From Armatimonadota bacterium (GTDB lineage: Bacteria > Armatimonadota > Chthonomonadetes > Chthonomonadales > Chthonomonadaceae), in contig JAGWMJ010000008.1 of the NCBI GenBank assembly GCA_028871815.1, positions 1 to 64,000 of the forward strand: a stretch of DNA of 64,000 nucleotides. Reading direction: 5' to 3'. The notes under the pieces are model-generated. The model searched no databases. It was given only the letters and a program-made list of their open reading frames with translations, and had not been told where the DNA came from. Each line of letters starts with the position of its first letter. Within the stretch, counting starts at the first letter, position 1. Made by a program: the position numbers and the translations under genes. Shown piece after piece: positions 5,591 through 56,913 of this stretch.

Positions 5591-7912
5591 ATGCCCCACT
5601 TGCTGCGCGCAGCAGCGTCCATCAGCCTGCTGATTAGCATGCAGTCTTCGCTTGCCGACACGGTTTACGTCTCGCCCTCGGGCAGTGACGGCGCCGCCGG
5701 TACCCGCGGCGCCCCGGTGCGCACGATCTCGCAGGCGCTCAGCCGCCGGGCGAACCGCATCGTACTGGAGGCTGGCCTATACCGCATCGAGGCGCCGATC
5801 ACGATCGGTCCGGAGAGCAGCGGCCTTACCATTGAGGCCGACGCCGGCGCTCATCCGGTGGTCACGTCGGCGGAGCGACTGCGGCTGGTGTGGCGGCGGT
5901 GGCAGGGAGGCGTGTACCGGGCTTCCGTGCCCACGCACGTGCGCGCGATCGACAGCCTCTGGGTGGCCGGCCGCCATGAGGTGCTGGCGCGATACCCGAA
6001 CTTCGACGCCGACGCGCCCTATCTCAACGGCGCCTCCTCCAGCGCCCTCTCGGCCGACCGTGCCGCGCGCTGGTCGGATCCGCGCGGGGCTATTGTTCAC
6101 GCCATGCAGCAGGGTTTGTGGGGTGATGAGTGGTTTGAGATAACGGGGAAGTCGCCGGATGGCGAGCCGCTGCTGAGCCCCCCGTGGGGCAACAACCGTC
6201 CATCGCCGCCGCATCCGAACTATCGTTACGTGGAAGGGCTGCTGGAGGAGCTGGACGCTCCGGGCGAGTGGTATTTTGATGCCGCTCGCCACTTTCTGTA
6301 CTACTACCCGCATATCGGAATGGATCTCGCCACGGCGGATGTGGAGGCTTCCGAGAGCGCGGAGCTGTTCCACATCGACGGCGGCGCCGGCGGTACGGTT
6401 CGCGGTGTGACGCTGAGTGGGCTCAGCTTTGAGCGCACCGCGCGCTCGTTTCGCGATACGCGCGAGCCACTGCTGCGTAGTGACTGGGAGATCGCCCGCC
6501 GAGGCGTGGTGGTTCTGGAGAACACCGATGGCTGCCGAATCGACCGGTGCCGGTTTGTGGACGTGGGCAGCAACGGCGTGTTTGTATCGGGCAGAAACCA
6601 CCGCGCAGTTGTGAGCGGCTGCCTGTTCCAGGATGTAGGCGCCAGCGGCATCTGCTTTGTGGGTCGGCCCACGGCCGTGCGCAGCCCGCTCTTCCACTAC
6701 TCGGAGCGCCTGGCGCTTGACCAGGTCGACCCCACGCCGGGTCCGCGTGGCGATGCCTACCCGATGGAGTGCATGGCTCAGGACTGCCTGATGCTCCGCA
6801 CGGGCCGCGTCGAGCTTCAATCTGCGGGTGTGGAAATCTCGATGGCGCGGCGGATCACGGTGGACCACTGTACGATTCGCGACGTGCCCCGCGCCGGCAT
6901 CAATATCGGCGACGGCTGCTGGGGCGGAGACCTGATCGAGAACTGCGATGTGAGTGACACGGTGCTGGAGAGCAGCGACCATGGTGCGTTCAACTCATGG
7001 GGCCGCGATCGCTATTGGGGCGTCGATTTCGCCGGCAAACCGATGCCGCCCGGCATGCCCGAGTGGGACACGATTGAGCCGAACGTACTGAGGCATAACC
7101 GTTTTCAGTGCGCACACGGGTGGGATATCGATCTGGACGATGGCAGCAGCAACTACGTTATTGAGGATAACCTCTGTATGCAGGGCGGCCTCAAGCTCCG
7201 CGAAGGCTACGACCGAACCGTGCGCAACAACCTGATCCTGTTCAATGGATTGCACCTGCACGTATGGTTCACCGCCAGCCACGATATCATCGAACGTAAC
7301 CTGGTCTCCTCGCCCTACGCGCCGATTGAGATGCCGGCGGTGTGGGGCACGGCCGTAAATCGCAACTTCCTGTGCCTGCCTGGTCAGCCCGTGCGAACCG
7401 CCGGCGAACTGCAGCGCGTCAGTCACGCCGACGCCGACTCCCTGGAGGGCGATCCCGGCTTTGTCAACGCGGCCGCCGGTGACTATCGGCTCATTCGGAA
7501 TGCTCCCGCGCTGGCGACCGGCTTTGTGCCGTTTCGGCTTTCCGGATTCGGCGTAACCGATCCGGCGCTGCAGCGGCTTGCTTCCGGCATGGTGCAGGGC
7601 GGCGCCACGCCGCCGGTGGATGGCGCCAGGCGGCGAGCAGAGCAGGCCTTTCTGGGCGGGCGCGTGGAGAACCTGACCGGCATGGGTGACGTTTCGGCCA
7701 CGGGTATGTATGCCGAGACCGGTGTGCTGGTGCTGGAGGCGCCCGATGGTTCGGAGCTGCGCGAGTTGGGAATCACCGCGCGAGACGTGGTGCTCGCCTG
7801 GGACGAGACTCCGACGCCGGACGTTGGATCGTTGGTTCAGGCGGCGCGCAGGCAGCTGCACCCTGCGCAGATCACCGTGTGGCGCAGCCAGAAACGCACG
7901 CCGATTCCGTAG
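5591..7912 (+). CDS. Secreted right-handed beta-helix protein with PDZ-like C-terminus
   Basis: The 773-residue protein has a signal peptide (residues 1-22, ending SSLA) and then the DUF1565-type opening [26 protein letters not shown]. Many short beta-helix rungs follow ([53 protein letters not shown]). The fold suggests binding or cleaving of carbohydrate outside the cell. The last 75 or so residues ([44 protein letters not shown]) look like a PDZ domain, which is unusual here. The frame is open to 5291 but the signal peptide fixes the start at 5591. Substrate unknown. Confidence 0.85.
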
Positions 7913-8021
7913 GCGCAGCGGCGGCGGTGCGGTTGCGTTCCAGGCTGGACGACAAACGGCATCATCCCACTGAGGTTCTTCCACGATGCGTGGGGGCGCG
8001 TAGGTTGTATGCGCAGCGCGG

Positions 8022-8570
8022 TTACCAGGCCGGCGGCTCGACACCGAACTGGGCCGCATACTCCTTGTTCAGGCGCTGCCAGCCGCCGAACTTCATTGCA
8101 TCGCCGGCAACCATGCGGCCGATCGGCGCCCCGCTGAGCATGCGATCGAGAACGTCGAGGCAGATGTGCCAGCCCGCGGCGCCCATGGAGATATACCGGC
8201 GACCGATCCTTGCACGCAGCGTCAGCCGTGTGCCATCCGGCAGCGCTTCCAGCTCCCAACGGGTATCGAGACCGTTCCACGCGAACTCCAGCAGAGTCGG
8301 CGCCTCGGCGTGGGTCACGGTGGTCTCGGTGACGTGCGGCGACGGCGCTCCAACCGTGGTCAACTTCACCACAGCTCCTACCCGGTCCAAACTCACGTCG
8401 GCATCAAACGGCGCCCACTCGCGCAGCTGAGCCGGGTCGGTTATCGCCTTCCAGACTTTTTCCGGCGAGTGGTGCAGTTCTCTCACGAGAACGAGCAGCC
8501 AGTTCTCTCCGTCCTTCTGTACTTCCGCCCCGAATGCAGGGGCCGGCATATATGGATCGCGATCGGTCAT
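8022..8570 (-). CDS. SRPBCC domain protein (AHSA1-like)
   Basis: The 182-residue protein has the SRPBCC/AHSA1 pattern: LVLVRELHHSPEKVWKAITDPAQLREWAPFDADV, then a long beta-sheet region and a C-terminal helix. The fold binds hydrophobic ligands. AAGGAG seven bases before the ATG at 8570 decides the start. It follows the ArsR-family gene at 8606-8911 by 35 bases; such ArsR/SRPBCC pairs are common, and the regulator most likely controls both genes. The ligand is unknown. Confidence 0.9.
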   Translation of the reverse strand: MTDRDPYMPAPAFGAEVQKDGENWLLVLVRELHHSPEKVWKAITDPAQLREWAPFDADVSLDRVGAVVKLTTVGAPSPHVTETTVTHAEAPTLLEFAWNGLDTRWELEALPDGTRLTLRARIGRRYISMGAAGWHICLDVLDRMLSGAPIGRMVAGDAMKFGGWQRLNKEYAAQFGVEPPAW

Positions 8571-8605
8571 CTTCTGCTCCTTGAGTTCCATGTTGGTGGT
8601 ACAGG

Positions 8606-8911
8606 CTATTCGACGCGGTCCAGATGGCGCTCGAGCGCGTCCACGTGCGCGGACAAGAGCCTGCGAAACGGAGTGAGCCACGCATCAACTTCCTGCAGCG
8701 CCTCCGGTTTCAGGCGGTAGAGGCGGCGCTGTGCATCCACCGTGCACTCCACCACGCCGGCCTCCCGTAGAACGCGCAGGTGCTTGGACACAGTGGGTTG
8801 AGACATGCGCAGACGACGCTCGATCGTCCCGACCGAATGCTGCGACGAGGCAAGCAGGCTCAGTATTGCCCGGCGGTTTGGTTCCGCAATCACGTCGAAC
8901 ACAGATTCCAT
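8606..8911 (-). CDS. ArsR family winged-helix transcriptional regulator
   Basis: The 101-residue protein is a compact winged helix: FDVIAEPNRRAILSLLASS, the recognition region RLRMSQPTVSKHLRVLREAGVVECTVDAQRRLYRL, and a C-terminal dimer helix. No metal-binding CxC is present, so it is not a classic metal sensor. It belongs to the group paired with SRPBCC proteins and likely represses its own operon. A palindrome lies inside its promoter (8932-8945). The ATG at 8911 fits family length. Confidence 0.92.
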   Translation of the reverse strand: MESVFDVIAEPNRRAILSLLASSQHSVGTIERRLRMSQPTVSKHLRVLREAGVVECTVDAQRRLYRLKPEALQEVDAWLTPFRRLLSAHVDALERHLDRVE

Positions 8912-8917
8912 GCCAAT

Positions 8918-8947
8918 AATATACCCATTTAGACATATACGTGTCAA
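8918..8947 (-). promoter_or_regulatory. arsR promoter with internal operator palindrome
   Basis: On the minus strand a perfect -35 TTGACA (plus 8942-8947) is followed after 18 bases by TATATT (8918-8923), which ends six bases before the ATG, so the transcript should be leaderless. Between them GACACGTATATGTC (8932-8945) has GACA/TGTC arms and overlaps the -35. That is a plausible ArsR operator that would block polymerase. Confidence 0.6.
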
Positions 8948-9057
8948 GGCATATATCACGTTGAGATGATGATAGAACCACGAAACAACCGATTCCGGAA
9001 TCGCGGCCGGCTGCTTGCCGCGGCCGGCCCGCGACGCGATATGGCCAAAAGACAGGC

Positions 9058-9390
9058 TTACCGGCGGGGCCAGTACATGATGACGGCCACCCCGACCAGG
9101 CAGATGCAGGCGCCCCAGCATTCGGCAGGGTCGGGCACTCGGCCGTCGAGCCGCCAGCCCCACAGCAGCGACATGATGATGAAGACGCCGCCGTACGCCG
9201 CGTAGATCCGGCCGAAACTGCCCTCCGGCTGCAGAACGGGCAGTACGCCATACAGCGCGAGAAGGATGGCGCCGAGGAGACCGAGCACCGGAGGTTGACC
9301 CTTCCGGAGCCACTGCCACATCAGCCAGCCGCCGCCAATCTCAAAAAGGCCGGCGCCAAGGAAGAGCAGCGCCGACCTTAAAACTATCAA
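9058..9390 (-). CDS. YnfA/UPF0060 family small membrane protein
   Basis: The 110-residue protein has four membrane segments and the family blocks FLGAGLFEIGGGWLMWQWLR, GRIYAAYGGVFIIMSLLWGWRLDG and the C-terminal GVAVIMYWPRR. The family resembles small multidrug-resistance proteins but its role is unsettled. The only start that keeps the first membrane segment is TTG at 9390, because an in-frame stop at 9415 closes the frame upstream. It follows the phosphoesterase gene by 24 bases. Confidence 0.88.
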   Translation of the reverse strand: MIVLRSALLFLGAGLFEIGGGWLMWQWLRKGQPPVLGLLGAILLALYGVLPVLQPEGSFGRIYAAYGGVFIIMSLLWGWRLDGRVPDPAECWGACICLVGVAVIMYWPRR

Positions 9391-52406: not shown

Positions 52407-52766
52407 GTGCAGATTGAGGGCGTGATTGCAACCGTAATGGTGACCGATATCGAGCGTGCCGTGCAGTTCTACTGTGATAAGCTCGGCTTCACGATCGCCG
52501 ATGAAACCTGCTCATGGGTTTTGTTTGCAGAAGGTGTCGCGCTGCGAACGGCGCCGGAGGCGATGCCGGACGACGCGTTCCGGATGAACGCGGTAGCCAT
52601 TACCCTGGCGGTGACCAGCGTGGAACAGGCGTGGAAGGAGCTAACGTCCCGTGGCGTGGCGTTTTACCTTGCCCCGACCATGCAGGGCGGCGTCTGCGTT
52701 GCCGCTTTTCGAGATAGCGAGAACAACGTAATGGAACTGATTGAGCTAAACGGTTCCGCGGCATAG
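52407..52766 (+). CDS. VOC/glyoxalase family protein
   Basis: The 119-residue protein is a vicinal-oxygen-chelate fold with two beta-alpha-beta3 units: VIATVMVTDIERAVQFYCDKLGFTIADETCSWVLFAEG and VAITLAVTSVEQAWKELTSRGVAFYLAPTMQGGVCVAAFRDSENNVMELIEL. The reaction is unknown; the set of metal ligands is incomplete. GTG at 52407 is the start. Confidence 0.87.
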   Translation: MQIEGVIATVMVTDIERAVQFYCDKLGFTIADETCSWVLFAEGVALRTAPEAMPDDAFRMNAVAITLAVTSVEQAWKELTSRGVAFYLAPTMQGGVCVAAFRDSENNVMELIELNGSAA

Positions 52767-52803: not shown

Positions 52804-53631
52804 TCAGCTCGTCCCGCCACCGCCGGCGCCGCTATCACCGGGTGGCGCTGAGAAGTCATCGGGATAGCGTCTCGATAGGACGATCATCAGCAGCACCAAC
52901 GCCACGATAACGCCACACGCAAGGTATTTGCCGTTGGCGCCCAGGTGAGTCTCGGCGCCCAGCTCTCCGCCCCAGCTGAACACCAGATAGTACATCCGGT
53001 CAATCAGCAGAGCGAGGCGCGCCATGACCGTGGAACCGAAGATTGCCCCAAACGCAAACATCATCATCCAGCGGCCCAGCCTGGAGCTGACCTTGATCGC
53101 CGGGTTCCGATGCTCAAATGAGAAGAAGAAGTACGACAGGACGCACACCACCATCACCACGAAAATGATGTTGTTGATCGCGTCACCCGGAGTAACTGCT
53201 TTTACGGTACCAGCCGCGGCGTGCGGCAGCAACGGCTTGAATGTGGCGGAAATCTGTGGCCACTGGTCGTTCGCAAACTGCTGAAATGCCTGACCCGAGG
53301 CCACGCCGAGGAAAAACCCGATGATGAGGCGCGCCATCCAATTGTGACGGCGCGAGAAGATGAAGTAGTAGTAGAACCCGATCATGAGTTCAAACATGTA
53401 CCACCACATGCCCTTATCCACCATGGGTTGATACCATTTGGGGCGAATGATATCTGTCCATGTGTTGGCAACCAGAAAGCCTGTGGCAAGCCCGAGATAG
53501 ACGTGTTCAAAGAAACGGTAGAGCTTGTTCTCACGATAGAGCAGCGAATAGAGGCCGATCGTACAGAGCGCGCCGATCCAGATCTGAATGTGCGGAGCGG
53601 TTGCCGCCAGCCAGGGAGAGAATCCTCTCAT
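52804..53631 (-). CDS. Membrane protein of DUF6754-associated operon (gene 6)
   Basis: The 275-residue protein is almost wholly membrane: about seven hydrophobic segments from APHIQIWIGALCTIGLYSLLY to the last AVIVALVLLMIVLSR (near residue 255), with a soluble tail of Gly/Pro (SAPPGDSGAGGGGTS). I do not recognise the family. Its ATG overlaps the stop of the previous gene (ATGA at 53628-53631), so they are coupled. It is the last gene of the operon. Likely a part of one membrane complex with its neighbours. Confidence 0.8.
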   Translation of the reverse strand: MRGFSPWLAATAPHIQIWIGALCTIGLYSLLYRENKLYRFFEHVYLGLATGFLVANTWTDIIRPKWYQPMVDKGMWWYMFELMIGFYYYFIFSRRHNWMARLIIGFFLGVASGQAFQQFANDQWPQISATFKPLLPHAAAGTVKAVTPGDAINNIIFVVMVVCVLSYFFFSFEHRNPAIKVSSRLGRWMMMFAFGAIFGSTVMARLALLIDRMYYLVFSWGGELGAETHLGANGKYLACGVIVALVLLMIVLSRRYPDDFSAPPGDSGAGGGGTS

Positions 53632-54512
53632 GCTGAAGCCTCCTGCTCACGGCGTTTCGACGCACGTTCTATCAGCATTCCCGCGTTGCCGAGAATGATC
53701 ATCAGGATGATAAGCAGGTGCGCGAAGGATGAGGAGTTGTTGAACTTGGTGGCTATTGCGGTTTCCGGTGGCAGCGGATGGCCCTCCTTCTGCTCCTCGT
53801 TCTCCACCAGCGTCTCATACTCCGCGGCCGCCGAAAGGCCCTGAAGCAAGCCCTTGATCTGGCCGCTATCGAGATAGTTGAACGACTCGGGGGCCATGAC
53901 GGCTGTGACAGCAATGCCCGTTTTAAGACGGTACGGTCCGCCAACGAACTGTATGTAGGTCTGGTAACTGCTTGTCGCCGTAATATCTATCAACGCGCTG
54001 AAGTCGGCTGCCGTGTGCACTCCAGCCATTACCGGAAGGCTGCTGAGCTTGTTGCCGTGGATGTCGGTACTGAACGTACCGGGAACGTTGAGATCCATCG
54101 CTTTCAGCGAGTTGTTCATATCCACCTTAAACCCGATATTCACCCAATCGATACCCTCGCGGTAACCAAACTCCTTCCCAATGCGGATTGCCGCATTCTC
54201 GCCCTGGGTTTTGCCCTGCGGATCGGAGTATGCCAGCATGCCGAATCGCAGGTGACGCAGCATCAGGTGCCGCATAATGGCTTCCGTTTCGGGGAGGTTC
54301 TCTCCGCGGGTTCCAGCAGACCAGTCGATGCCAAGCAGCACAAAGCTATGCTCAGGAAGCGACTGAATCATGTTGAAAAGGTCGCGCGACGGCTTGGTTG
54401 GGTAGACCGGCGGATTGAACTCCAGAAAGAATGGCGCCACCACGCAGAGAATGAGCAGTGCATACAGATACCGCCGGTCGAGTCTTTGGAGGTTGTTGAC
54501 GATGTTTGCCAT
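53628..54512 (-). CDS. Bitopic extracytoplasmic-domain protein of DUF6754-associated operon (gene 5)
   Basis: The 294-residue protein has one membrane segment at residues 15-32 (YLYALLILCVVAPFFLEF) and one near the end (FAHLLIILMIILGNAGMLIERASKRR), with a soluble domain of about 220 residues between. The domain has the pattern SLPEHSFVLLGIDWSAGTRGENLPETEAIMRHLML, FGYREGIDWVNIGFKVDMNNSLKAMDLNV, and IQFVGGPYRLKTGIAVTAVMAPESFNYL. I do not recognise it. The topology suggests an extracytoplasmic sensing or binding part. Its ATG follows the stop of the gene before it directly (TAAATG). Confidence 0.82.
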   Translation of the reverse strand: MANIVNNLQRLDRRYLYALLILCVVAPFFLEFNPPVYPTKPSRDLFNMIQSLPEHSFVLLGIDWSAGTRGENLPETEAIMRHLMLRHLRFGMLAYSDPQGKTQGENAAIRIGKEFGYREGIDWVNIGFKVDMNNSLKAMDLNVPGTFSTDIHGNKLSSLPVMAGVHTAADFSALIDITATSSYQTYIQFVGGPYRLKTGIAVTAVMAPESFNYLDSGQIKGLLQGLSAAAEYETLVENEEQKEGHPLPPETAIATKFNNSSSFAHLLIILMIILGNAGMLIERASKRREQEASA

Positions 54513-55328
54513 TTATACCTGGCCGTCGAAGTAGCTGCCGCGCTCCAATCCGAGCCATACGCGCAGCGCCACGGCAAGATTGCCGATTCCCACGCCGAAG
54601 GCAATCGCCCGAACGGCGGCGGTGTTTGGAACGACGAGCAGCCAGTTGCGGATATTCTCCAGCCGGAAGCTGGAAACGAACCCTGCGTCCGGCAGCGAGT
54701 GCGTAACAAACTGCCCCAGAGATATCTGTCCCAGCATTACGACGACGGCGGTTATCAGCAGCAGGGTGGCTTCGGCGCTGCGCGCACGGAATGCGCGGTA
54801 TGCGGCCGAGACGATATAGAACGCGATCAGCGAAAACATTGTCGCATCGAGCGACTGGAGGGCGCCGTCGTACAGGAGCTTATTCTCGTTGATGTTGATG
54901 AGGTTCTGATGTGGCTGCTGGAGCACGTTCACGACGAACATTATGATGAGCGAGGCGAAGAATGCCGAGCTGTTGAGCATGTCGGCGCCGCCACGAACCA
55001 CGCGCTTGAAATGGATCTGGCACAGGTTCACCAGTCCAAGACCGACCGCCCAACCTACGAGCACCGGACTGACGTTACCGAATGGTTCAATGAACGGCGT
55101 GAGGAAGTTACCGGCATGCTGCGCACCCTTTGGTCCCTGCAGGTGCGTTGGCCAGAAGAACTCCACGACAAAGAACAGTCCACCAAGAAAGGTGATGCCA
55201 AACACCAGGTATCGCCGGTAGCGCTGTGGCGTTTGCATCAGCGCCAGCGTGACCACAACTGAGAAGAGGATGGCGCCAACCATCCAGGCGATTAGCGCCA
55301 ACCCGTGTTTCGGGGTGAATAGTTCCAT
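54513..55328 (-). CDS. Membrane protein of DUF6754-associated operon (gene 4)
   Basis: The 271-residue protein has seven or so membrane segments (LIAWMVGAILFSVVVTLALM, YLVFGITFLGGLFFVVEFFW, PVLVGWAVGLGLVNLCQIHF, SSAFFASLIIMFVVNVL and others). A Gly/His-rich loop (THLQGPKGAQHAGNFLTPFIEPFGN) lies near residue 65. The length and segment count are close to gene 6, so the two may be paralogous subunits. I do not recognise the family. The stop abuts the ATG of gene 5 without a gap. Confidence 0.8.
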   Translation of the reverse strand: MELFTPKHGLALIAWMVGAILFSVVVTLALMQTPQRYRRYLVFGITFLGGLFFVVEFFWPTHLQGPKGAQHAGNFLTPFIEPFGNVSPVLVGWAVGLGLVNLCQIHFKRVVRGGADMLNSSAFFASLIIMFVVNVLQQPHQNLININENKLLYDGALQSLDATMFSLIAFYIVSAAYRAFRARSAEATLLLITAVVVMLGQISLGQFVTHSLPDAGFVSSFRLENIRNWLLVVPNTAAVRAIAFGVGIGNLAVALRVWLGLERGSYFDGQV

Positions 55329-55365
55329 ATTAGATCAGGTTATGGTGCATTGCGTTCGCGCCCTT

Positions 55366-56145
55366 CTACTTGCGCATGAACTGATGGACCAGCCACTCGC
55401 CCCATGGAGCATGGCCGGTGGCGATTAGAGAGCCTAAAACCATAATGGCCAGCAAAACGCCCTTACAGAAATCCTGACCAACCAGGCTGCCGAGTTGAGT
55501 GGGCTCCCTCGAGAGGTAGGCGCTGGCGGCGTAGAATTCGTCTCCAATAATCACGTAGTCACAGGCGGCAATGAAGAAGGGAATCTGCGTTGTTGCCGTT
55601 GTTCCGGCAATCTGAATAGCGCCAACCTGCTGACCCACCTCGGCGATCACCAGTGATTCCGCATAGTAGTAACCAAACAGGAAGGTAGCGGCCGCCTTCT
55701 CGCGCATGACCAGACCGGCGACGGCTGCGGCGTAGGCAAACTGGCGATTCGTGAGGAATCGCACGTCGTCGGGGTTGTAGAGTTCGGGCCTGCCTGCGGC
55801 AATGTAACTATCCCGCACCGCCTCTTCGGTAACCGGCTGCATCTGCGGGTCAAAAACCGGACAGATGGCGCGGGCGCCGAACTGAGCCGACTCGCGGATA
55901 ATGTAGGTGATGATGGAGAGCGCCTGGAGCGTAACGATCTCGATGCCGCCGTTGACTCCAAGGCCGGTTGTGCAGACCATGGGACGGCCCATTTCGGTTG
56001 CACGGCCAATGGCTTCGTCGATAGCGGTAAGGCCCTGGATACGGCGGATGTAGAGGTTACGGCGGCGGGCCAGCAGTATCCCCATGATTATCGCGATGCT
56101 GAACACCGACAGCAGCACCCGTACCATGTCGTTCGCGTGGTTCAT
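55366..56145 (-). CDS. DUF6754 family membrane protein (gene 3)
   Basis: The 259-residue protein has an N-terminal membrane segment (MVRVLLSVFSIAIIMGILLA), a soluble central domain with RRIQGLTAIDEAIGRATEMGRPMVCTTGLGVNGGIEIVTLQALSIITYIIRESAQFGARAICPVFDPQMQPVTEEAVRDSY, and two C-terminal segments (near FFIAACDYVIIGDEFYAASAYL and GVLLAIMVLGSLIA). The MGRPM.....G block is the conserved core of the DUF6754 group. Function unknown. The ATG at 56145 lies within gene 2, overlapping by 89 bases. Confidence 0.82.
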   Translation of the reverse strand: MNHANDMVRVLLSVFSIAIIMGILLARRRNLYIRRIQGLTAIDEAIGRATEMGRPMVCTTGLGVNGGIEIVTLQALSIITYIIRESAQFGARAICPVFDPQMQPVTEEAVRDSYIAAGRPELYNPDDVRFLTNRQFAYAAAVAGLVMREKAAATFLFGYYYAESLVIAEVGQQVGAIQIAGTTATTQIPFFIAACDYVIIGDEFYAASAYLSREPTQLGSLVGQDFCKGVLLAIMVLGSLIATGHAPWGEWLVHQFMRK

Positions 56146-56428
56146 CCGTCATCTCTCCAAGGCGGTCCATCAGTCTGGTAATGTTGGCGCGATCCTGCAG
56201 AAGCTTGGCGGCCTGCTGCAGATTGCGCGGCCCAAAGATTGGCGCCAGTATTCCGGACGCCAGGATCATCGCCTGGCTTGCGATATTGCTCAATGGCCGG
56301 TGCGTTTCCAGCAACAGAATCGCCGGTGTGGCCAGTCCTCGTTTGAGAATCTGGTGGGCGATCGCTTCAATCATTTCGTCACGACGCTCGGCCGGTAGGT
56401 CGGCGTCCCAGTCAAACGCGCCGATCAC
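56057..56428 (-). CDS. Small protein of DUF6754-associated operon (gene 2)
   Basis: The 123-residue protein has a soluble start (IGAFDWDADLPAERRDEMIEAIAHQILKRGLATPAILLLET) and one hydrophobic stretch (ASQAMILASGILAPIFG). The last 28 residues overlap the DUF6754 gene and look random, so the natural end may be a shared or decayed region. The GTG start at 56428 overlaps the stop of gene 1 (GTGA). I do not recognise it. Confidence 0.65.
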   Translation of the reverse strand: MIGAFDWDADLPAERRDEMIEAIAHQILKRGLATPAILLLETHRPLSNIASQAMILASGILAPIFGPRNLQQAAKLLQDRANITRLMDRLGEMTDEPRERHGTGAAVGVQHRDNHGDTAGPPP

Positions 56429-56913
56429 TGGGCAACCCCGGCCGCCGTATCGTGGTTTGCAATGCCTTCCGCAGATGCCATGCTGGCCACGAATTGGCGT
56501 ATCGTGAATTCATCTGGAGCGCTTCCGAAGCGCACATAGAGGCCCCGGAATGGCGACAGTCGATTGGTTGGCAGTACCGGGCTGAGGCGGATACCCCAGG
56601 CGTTGGAGCGCCAGTACCGTACCTGGCCCCAGCCCAACCGGGTATCGGCGATGAGAGTTCGAGCGGAGGCCCCATCGGAATCGAGTCGGTACGTTATCGG
56701 CAGTAGATAGTCGAGACTCGAGCCGACGAGCAGGCCGGCAGCTGCCAGTACCGGTAAAACCGAAGAGAACATCAACCAGACACAACTGCAACCAATAACA
56801 AGCACCATCGCCAGAACCACCAGTTTACGCGGCTGCTGCCGCAGAAGGTGTACGCGCCACTGCAGCGCCGGGCAATCGGTAGACGCCTCCGCGACGTTGG
56901 CGAATTGGTTCAT
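56425..56913 (-). CDS. Two-segment membrane protein, first gene of DUF6754-associated operon (gene 1)
   Basis: The 162-residue protein has two membrane segments (KLVVLAMVLVIGCSCVWLMF and VLPVLAAAGLLVGSSLDYLLPI). A beta-rich cytosolic part follows (TYRLDSDGASARTLIADTRLGWGQVRYWRSNAWGIRLSPVL), whose layout resembles bacterial PH-like domains. It is read first after the consensus promoter at 56977-57005. Frames are open upstream to 57369 but the ATG at 56913 is the only one inside the transcript. Unknown function. Confidence 0.75.
   Translation of the reverse strand: MNQFANVAEASTDCPALQWRVHLLRQQPRKLVVLAMVLVIGCSCVWLMFSSVLPVLAAAGLLVGSSLDYLLPITYRLDSDGASARTLIADTRLGWGQVRYWRSNAWGIRLSPVLPTNRLSPFRGLYVRFGSAPDEFTIRQFVASMASAEGIANHDTAAGVAQ

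Follow-up and report, generated by a model that had tools for sequence, protein, structure and literature searches.

A conserved eight-gene set around DUF6754: a candidate ASKHA-ATPase-driven inner-membrane machine in Armatimonadota and other bacteria

The established client of GlmL, a protein of the GlmL/MutL family (PF13941; NCBIfam GlmL, NF040745, and Or-4, NF040744), is glutamate mutase. PilM of type IV pili and GspL of type II secretion are actin-fold proteins on inner-membrane assemblies. The family DUF6754 (PF20539) carries no function. Here we analyzed a DUF6754-containing block of six minus-strand genes, A to F, at positions 52804-56913 of a 64,000-nucleotide stretch of an Armatimonadota genome (assembly GCA_028871815.1, contig JAGWMJ010000008.1, positions 1 to 64,000; hereafter the window), which a preliminary description had proposed to encode a fixed, undescribed membrane complex. 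Our tentatively favoured reading, held at somewhat short of even confidence, is that A-F supply the membrane portion of a conserved inner-membrane complex with eight components, in which two further proteins, M and H, would be an ATP-driven cytosolic module. The existence of the system is well supported, its proteins would be physically associated in a complex, and our best guess is that it is an inner-membrane machine driven by an ASKHA ATPase. In common with GlmL, M belongs to the ASKHA fold family over its full length; its link to a membrane operon sets it apart. As a comparison of arrangement, PilM and GspL likewise attach an actin-like fold to an assembly of the inner membrane, but no secretin or pilus motor gene is constant in the set. 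C is a clear member of DUF6754, and the multi-gene context is the new part.

A scan of 84,980 species genomes gave at least 590 pattern matches, of which 589 were confirmed and the best 80 loci were kept; the window, these loci and further regions from Armatimonadota genomes make up a set of 100 loci. The order A-B-[M-H]-C-D-E-F is kept in nearly all of them, across about a dozen phyla: 46 of the 100 read ABCDEF and 26 read CDEF, and the remainder have the same order with duplicated or split hits or are cut off at a contig end. C-D-E-F is the invariant core of the locus. The kept loci, being the best 80 of at least 589, are labelled Armatimonadota, Latescibacterota, WOR-3/Stahlbacteria, Cloacimonadota, Planctomycetota (including Scalindua and Loosdrechtia), Zixibacteria and Eisenbacteria, and also Gemmatimonadota, Poribacteria, TA06, Abditibacteriota and a few others. 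Profiles seeded with single window proteins found 97-102 homologues each for D, E and F among the open reading frames of the collected loci, and 56-60 for A and B, while DUF6754 occurs in 173 of 201 Armatimonadota genomes versus 0 of 14 control genomes. The tree of C groups largely by phylum, which makes the system an old one, passed on mostly by vertical descent. Asking whether the same genes travel together, as the preliminary description had suggested, thus gave a positive answer. It had also named a gene order conserved in no relative, or subunits from a known transporter family, as findings that would speak against its proposal; the same order recurs in nearly all 100 loci, and no subunit was found to belong to such a family, D and F giving sub-threshold matches only in searches of Pfam, NCBIfam and PDB sequences.

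M and H lie between B and C in many loci (Latescibacterota, anammox-type Planctomycetota and some Armatimonadota). M has about 600 residues, matches the MutL/GlmL-family ASKHA ATPases over its full length (PF13941, 2.5e-125) and carries the invariant motifs DCGSTTTK and DIGGATTD; H has about 372 residues, with an RnfC_N-like barrel-sandwich part and a C-terminus weakly like the SPT5 KOW domain. The window genome carries both at a separate locus (G000:C1), where they match the operon profiles at 7e-288 (M) and 6.7e-146 (H); against PF13941 its M scores 425.8 bits and a relative 419 bits, placing both in the family. Where other phyla have C-D-E-F by itself, B (L158, L166, L168) or A (L162) sometimes stands ahead of the separate M-H pair, and in L165 M-H adjoins B, A, F and E. 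Given these split arrangements of A/B, M-H and C-D-E-F, the eight genes are best read as one set cut at different points. The fixed complex of the preliminary description therefore keeps its conserved order and its distance from known transporter families, but comprises eight genes and not six, and as a complex it would be a physical association predicted from these patterns. Likewise, the remark that none of the genes carries an enzyme motif applies to the six-gene piece and fails for the full set, because M, an ASKHA ATPase, and H belong to the set though unlinked in the window genome.

Co-inheritance in the 201 Armatimonadota genomes points the same way. C and H are both present in 171 genomes and both absent from 17, with C only in 2 and H only in 11 (Fisher p 1.6e-15); the two C-only genomes are 80% and 55% complete and most of the 11 H-only genomes are incomplete. 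At 90% completeness or more and 5% contamination or less, the counts are 127 with both, 0 with C only, 3 with H only and 10 with neither. The distribution of M is alike (179 of 201). In the 15 genomes without C, H and M that were searched for E and F, neither gene was found. Among genomes whose loci are partial or minimal, all 34 tested contain H, which in a few cases sits at the C locus. Counted from family and genus labels, joint loss has happened about 6-9 separate times, also among relatives that belong to the same family as the window genome. That the genes stand together by chance, or owing to neighbouring essential genes (infC to pheT in the window), is a reading to which we give next to no weight: the window block does adjoin translation genes, but the flanks vary between lineages while the internal order is constant, and the order across phyla and the joint loss of the unlinked A-F and M-H refute it. 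It is well supported that bacteria of many phyla keep or lose the eight-gene set as a whole.

Several points weigh against a single eight-component machine. The p-values are optimistic because presence is clustered by clade, and three genomes of 90-92% completeness have H with no C detected. Furthermore, since 26 of the 100 loci hold only C-D-E-F together, M and H could be a co-selected helper and not stoichiometric subunits, and the putative ATPase activity of M is read from its family motifs.

The helper could be a chaperone. In this possible but rather unlikely alternative, C-D-E-F would be a stand-alone membrane complex, such as a transporter or channel gated by a nucleotide or metabolite at the C domain, and M-H would serve its assembly or repair, as GlmL does for glutamate mutase. 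The GlmL relatives of M are indeed accessory ATPases, C-D-E-F is the part that never varies, and the closest folds of C are nucleotide-binding DHS/Rossmann folds, such as the MthK RCK domain and domain III of transhydrogenase; however, these matches of fold are generic, with Foldseek E values not below 3.8e-3, and M and H are inherited as strictly as C, which exceeds what is expected of an optional chaperone. As for the mutase itself, M scores 223 bits against NF040745, well below its equivalog cut-off of 475 bits. The glutamate mutase E subunit (PF06368) was found in 1 of the 201 genomes, weakly (29.8 bits), versus M in 179, and MM-CoA (methylmalonyl-CoA) mutase in 10. Because these mutases are nearly absent and the score lies below the GlmL cut-off, a mutase-repair role of M is unlikely in nearly all of these genomes.

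H matches RnfC_N (PF13375) over the barrel-sandwich part (4.4e-6; 27.1 bits against a cut-off of 25.6), although partially (46-84 of 101), and its C-terminus aligns to SPT5/NusG-type KOW domains at E of about 0.07-0.4, with no significant full-length match. Together with the presence of transhydrogenase domain III among the fold matches of both C and E, this resemblance would suit a redox- or coenzyme-linked ion pump, Rnf- or transhydrogenase-like in logic, with H corresponding to RnfC and C and E to NAD(P)-binding folds. We consider such a pump very improbable, because the 16 H sequences have no invariant or nearly invariant cysteine, so that the [4Fe-4S] cysteine motifs of RnfC are missing and H would lack RnfC-type Fe-S clusters, because the set includes no flavoprotein, flavin or Fe-S partner of the kind found in Rnf, and because C has a single conserved cysteine.

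AlphaFold2 models of C and E, built from alignments of the collected loci, had a mean predicted local distance difference test score (pLDDT) of 94.2 and 95.2, respectively, and in both a Rossmann-like alpha/beta domain stands between two membrane helices. Positively charged residues follow the first helix of C (ARR..YIRRI) and precede that of E (LDRR), so the positive-inside rule would put the domain of C inside and that of E outside. In Foldseek searches of the PDB, the best E was no better than 2e-3 for either model. VIA-align returned for C sirtuins, GmhA, CODH epsilon, transhydrogenase domain III and the MthK RCK domain (Z 9-12, root-mean-square deviation 2.8-5.5 over about 110-165 residues) and for E a weaker list overlapping that of C (best Z 10.2); a family missing from these lists is not counted as evidence of absence. 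Both models thus align to DHS-like folds, from which they differ by a membrane anchor on either side, and the PDB has no protein similar to them in sequence. These structural neighbours support a nucleotide-binding type of fold without indicating a function. Although sirtuins are among the best neighbours of C, and more weakly of E, C has no zinc motif, one conserved cysteine (C195) in 77 sequences and no sirtuin Pfam match. Twenty polar residues of C are conserved at 93% or more across phyla, which suggests a putative binding site or tight interfaces.

The clearest likeness within the set is that between C and E, which have topology and fold class in common. Paralogy of the two by sequence was considered and not retained (P 0.031, not significant), although they are in register after the first transmembrane helix. 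By comparison, D and F, which had been taken for paired multi-segment subunits, are not a recognisable pair (hhalign probability 0.3%); D has six predicted helices, and in both proteins conserved arginines and glutamates lie within or beside hydrophobic segments. Sequence searches of the PDB with all eight families found no relative.

The C proteins of most other phyla carry at their N-terminus a signal peptide and at least one FN3-like domain with the motif AxDTPNDxGxSIxLxW, assigned by eye and without a Pfam match in a scan of relatives; these domains would lie outside, and the window C is devoid of them. In three loci (L091:855-3629, L119, L120) the N-terminus of C is longer by about 680-730 residues, which are propeller-like in L091 and form FN3-like repeats in Cloacimonadota, and in L114 the N-terminal part is likewise much longer. 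Since this is the most variable part of the system (none, FN3-like or much longer), a signalling or sensing platform could be imagined, in which the ectodomain of C binds an envelope ligand, the cytosolic domain with M-H reports it, and D and F act as a scaffold; a PH-like domain in A would fit a membrane scaffold. We think this improbable, as the set is without a kinase, cyclase, DNA-binding or receiver gene and its flanks are not conserved, though response regulators adjoin a few loci.

Returning to the eight-component complex, we propose the following model. C, D, E and F would form the core, with D and F as its membrane-embedded body, C placing its Rossmann-like domain in the cytosol and E a similarly folded domain outside. 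M, the ASKHA ATPase, and H, a barrel-sandwich/KOW-like adaptor, would be the soluble cytosolic part, and A and B accessory subunits. M probably binds and hydrolyses ATP and, with H, may drive a conformational cycle on the cytosolic domain of C; the cycle could be relayed through D/F to E and, in other phyla, to the FN3 or propeller ectodomain of C. Candidates for the work done are the movement of a solute, lipid or envelope polymer, or the remodelling of an envelope partner. ATP turnover, its coupling, the topology of D and F, and direction and substrate all belong to the conditional part of this model.

The layout of the block in the window is given in Table 1.

Table 1. Genes of the DUF6754 block in the window
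Gene	Position	Strand	Length	Description
A	56425..56913	minus	162 aa	ATG at 56913; two N-terminal transmembrane (TM) helices and a small cytosolic domain (PH-like, weak)
B	56057..56428	minus	123 aa	GTG start; conserved motif PAILFLExHKPLxFxxSQ; small and soluble, with one hydrophobic stretch; no known family
C	55366..56145	minus		DUF6754 (PF20539); TM, predicted cytosolic Rossmann-like domain, TM; lacks the extracytoplasmic FN3-like domain of other phyla (short form)
D	54513..55328	minus	271 aa	about 6 TM; conserved core ATMFSLLAFFIASAAYRAFRAR-EAT; no known family
E	53628..54512	minus	294 aa	TM, predicted extracytoplasmic Rossmann-like domain, TM; no known family
F	52804..53631	minus	275 aa	polytopic membrane protein; conserved FGAxFGxTVMARxSLLIGR; no known family

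All six open reading frames described earlier as running together on the minus strand were found, and the coupled junctions could be read directly from the letters: GTGA at 56428-56425 (A/B), TAAATG at 54515-54510 (D/E) and ATGA at 53631-53628 (E/F). B and C overlap by 89 nt (56057-56145) because the C-terminal tail of the window B exceeds that of its relatives by about 20 residues; in L058, B stops where C starts. Hydropathy agrees with five membrane proteins among the six, giving 2 TM segments each in A, C and E, 6 in D and at least 3 in F, and makes B a soluble protein with one marginal hydrophobic segment; the domain of about 220 residues between two TM anchors that had been noted in E is borne out by hydropathy and the AlphaFold2 model. 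In a Pfam scan of A-F, C alone gave a match, to DUF6754 (8.7e-88; 294 bits against a gathering cut-off of 27, covering 13-249 of the 257 profile positions), so the DUF6754 protein named earlier is gene C; an NCBIfam scan gave no match for any of the six. The PH-like part noted in A is weakly supported: the window A has no bPH match, and bPH_6 was found in 7 of 39 relatives at E of 0.1 or less (best 0.0016); 40 relatives of A align over at least 75% of the profile. A weak match of B to citryl-CoA lyase (E 0.036) was discarded.

Upstream, the block is flanked by divergent infC-rpmI-rplT-pheS-pheT, recognised by eye from the open reading frames, and downstream by a VOC-family gene convergent with F and then a xerC-like recombinase. 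The VOC/glyoxalase-fold gene lies at 52407-52766 (PF00903, 1.2e-10), 37 bp from the stop of F. At the separate locus of the window genome (contig C1, L133:6335-10927), a pilin-like membrane gene (7513-8286) and an S-adenosylmethionine (SAM)-methyltransferase-like gene with a Trm112-like N-terminus (8226-9098) stand between M and H, and in L172 a similar methyltransferase-like gene precedes H. One metagenome-assembled genome (L113:851-10887) has three tandem C-D-E-F sets after H, whose C copies are well separated in the tree. The system also occurs on contigs labelled Klebsiella pneumoniae (L124), Bacteriovoracaceae (L122), Actinomycetota (L064) and Bacillota (L068), which are metagenome bins with doubtful labels. 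A search for conserved flanking genes found that the flanks differ between lineages. Opp/Dpp-type peptide ABC genes are found near loci of Latescibacterota and Fimbriimonadia (downstream of L078, L080 and L088; upstream of L082 and L087; downstream of L073, L081, L084, L092, L106 and L115), which we treat as a lead only because the clades are few and the order varies. A search of viral contigs found no relative. LptD was uninformative as an outer-membrane marker because its Pfam model detects practically none in Armatimonadota.

A search of the open-access literature, outside which most subscription journals lie, found no paper naming DUF6754 and nothing relevant on the ATPase link, and we know of no counterpart to a GlmL-type ASKHA ATPase combined with this four-protein membrane core. 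A bolder proposal, which we regard as possible though doubtful, is that it represents an undescribed class of primary-active transmembrane machine, in which a GlmL-type ASKHA ATPase, and not an ABC, P-type, AAA+ or rotary one, powers a four-subunit inner-membrane complex with mirrored Rossmann domains on both faces; the class would extend over Armatimonadota, Latescibacterota, Cloacimonadota, WOR-3, Zixibacteria, Planctomycetota and others. So far C is known only by a DUF name, M is classed with mutase accessory proteins for which these genomes have no need, and none of the other six families bears a curated name; annotations as 'glutamate mutase L' in these phyla are probably mistaken. The set is nearly universal in Armatimonadota and also occurs in many phyla with few cultured members; with its components listed, the system can be tested now. 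If our reading is true, a major piece would be added to envelope biology: a membrane machine of ancient conservation that has its own ATPase and lacks a known counterpart in model organisms.

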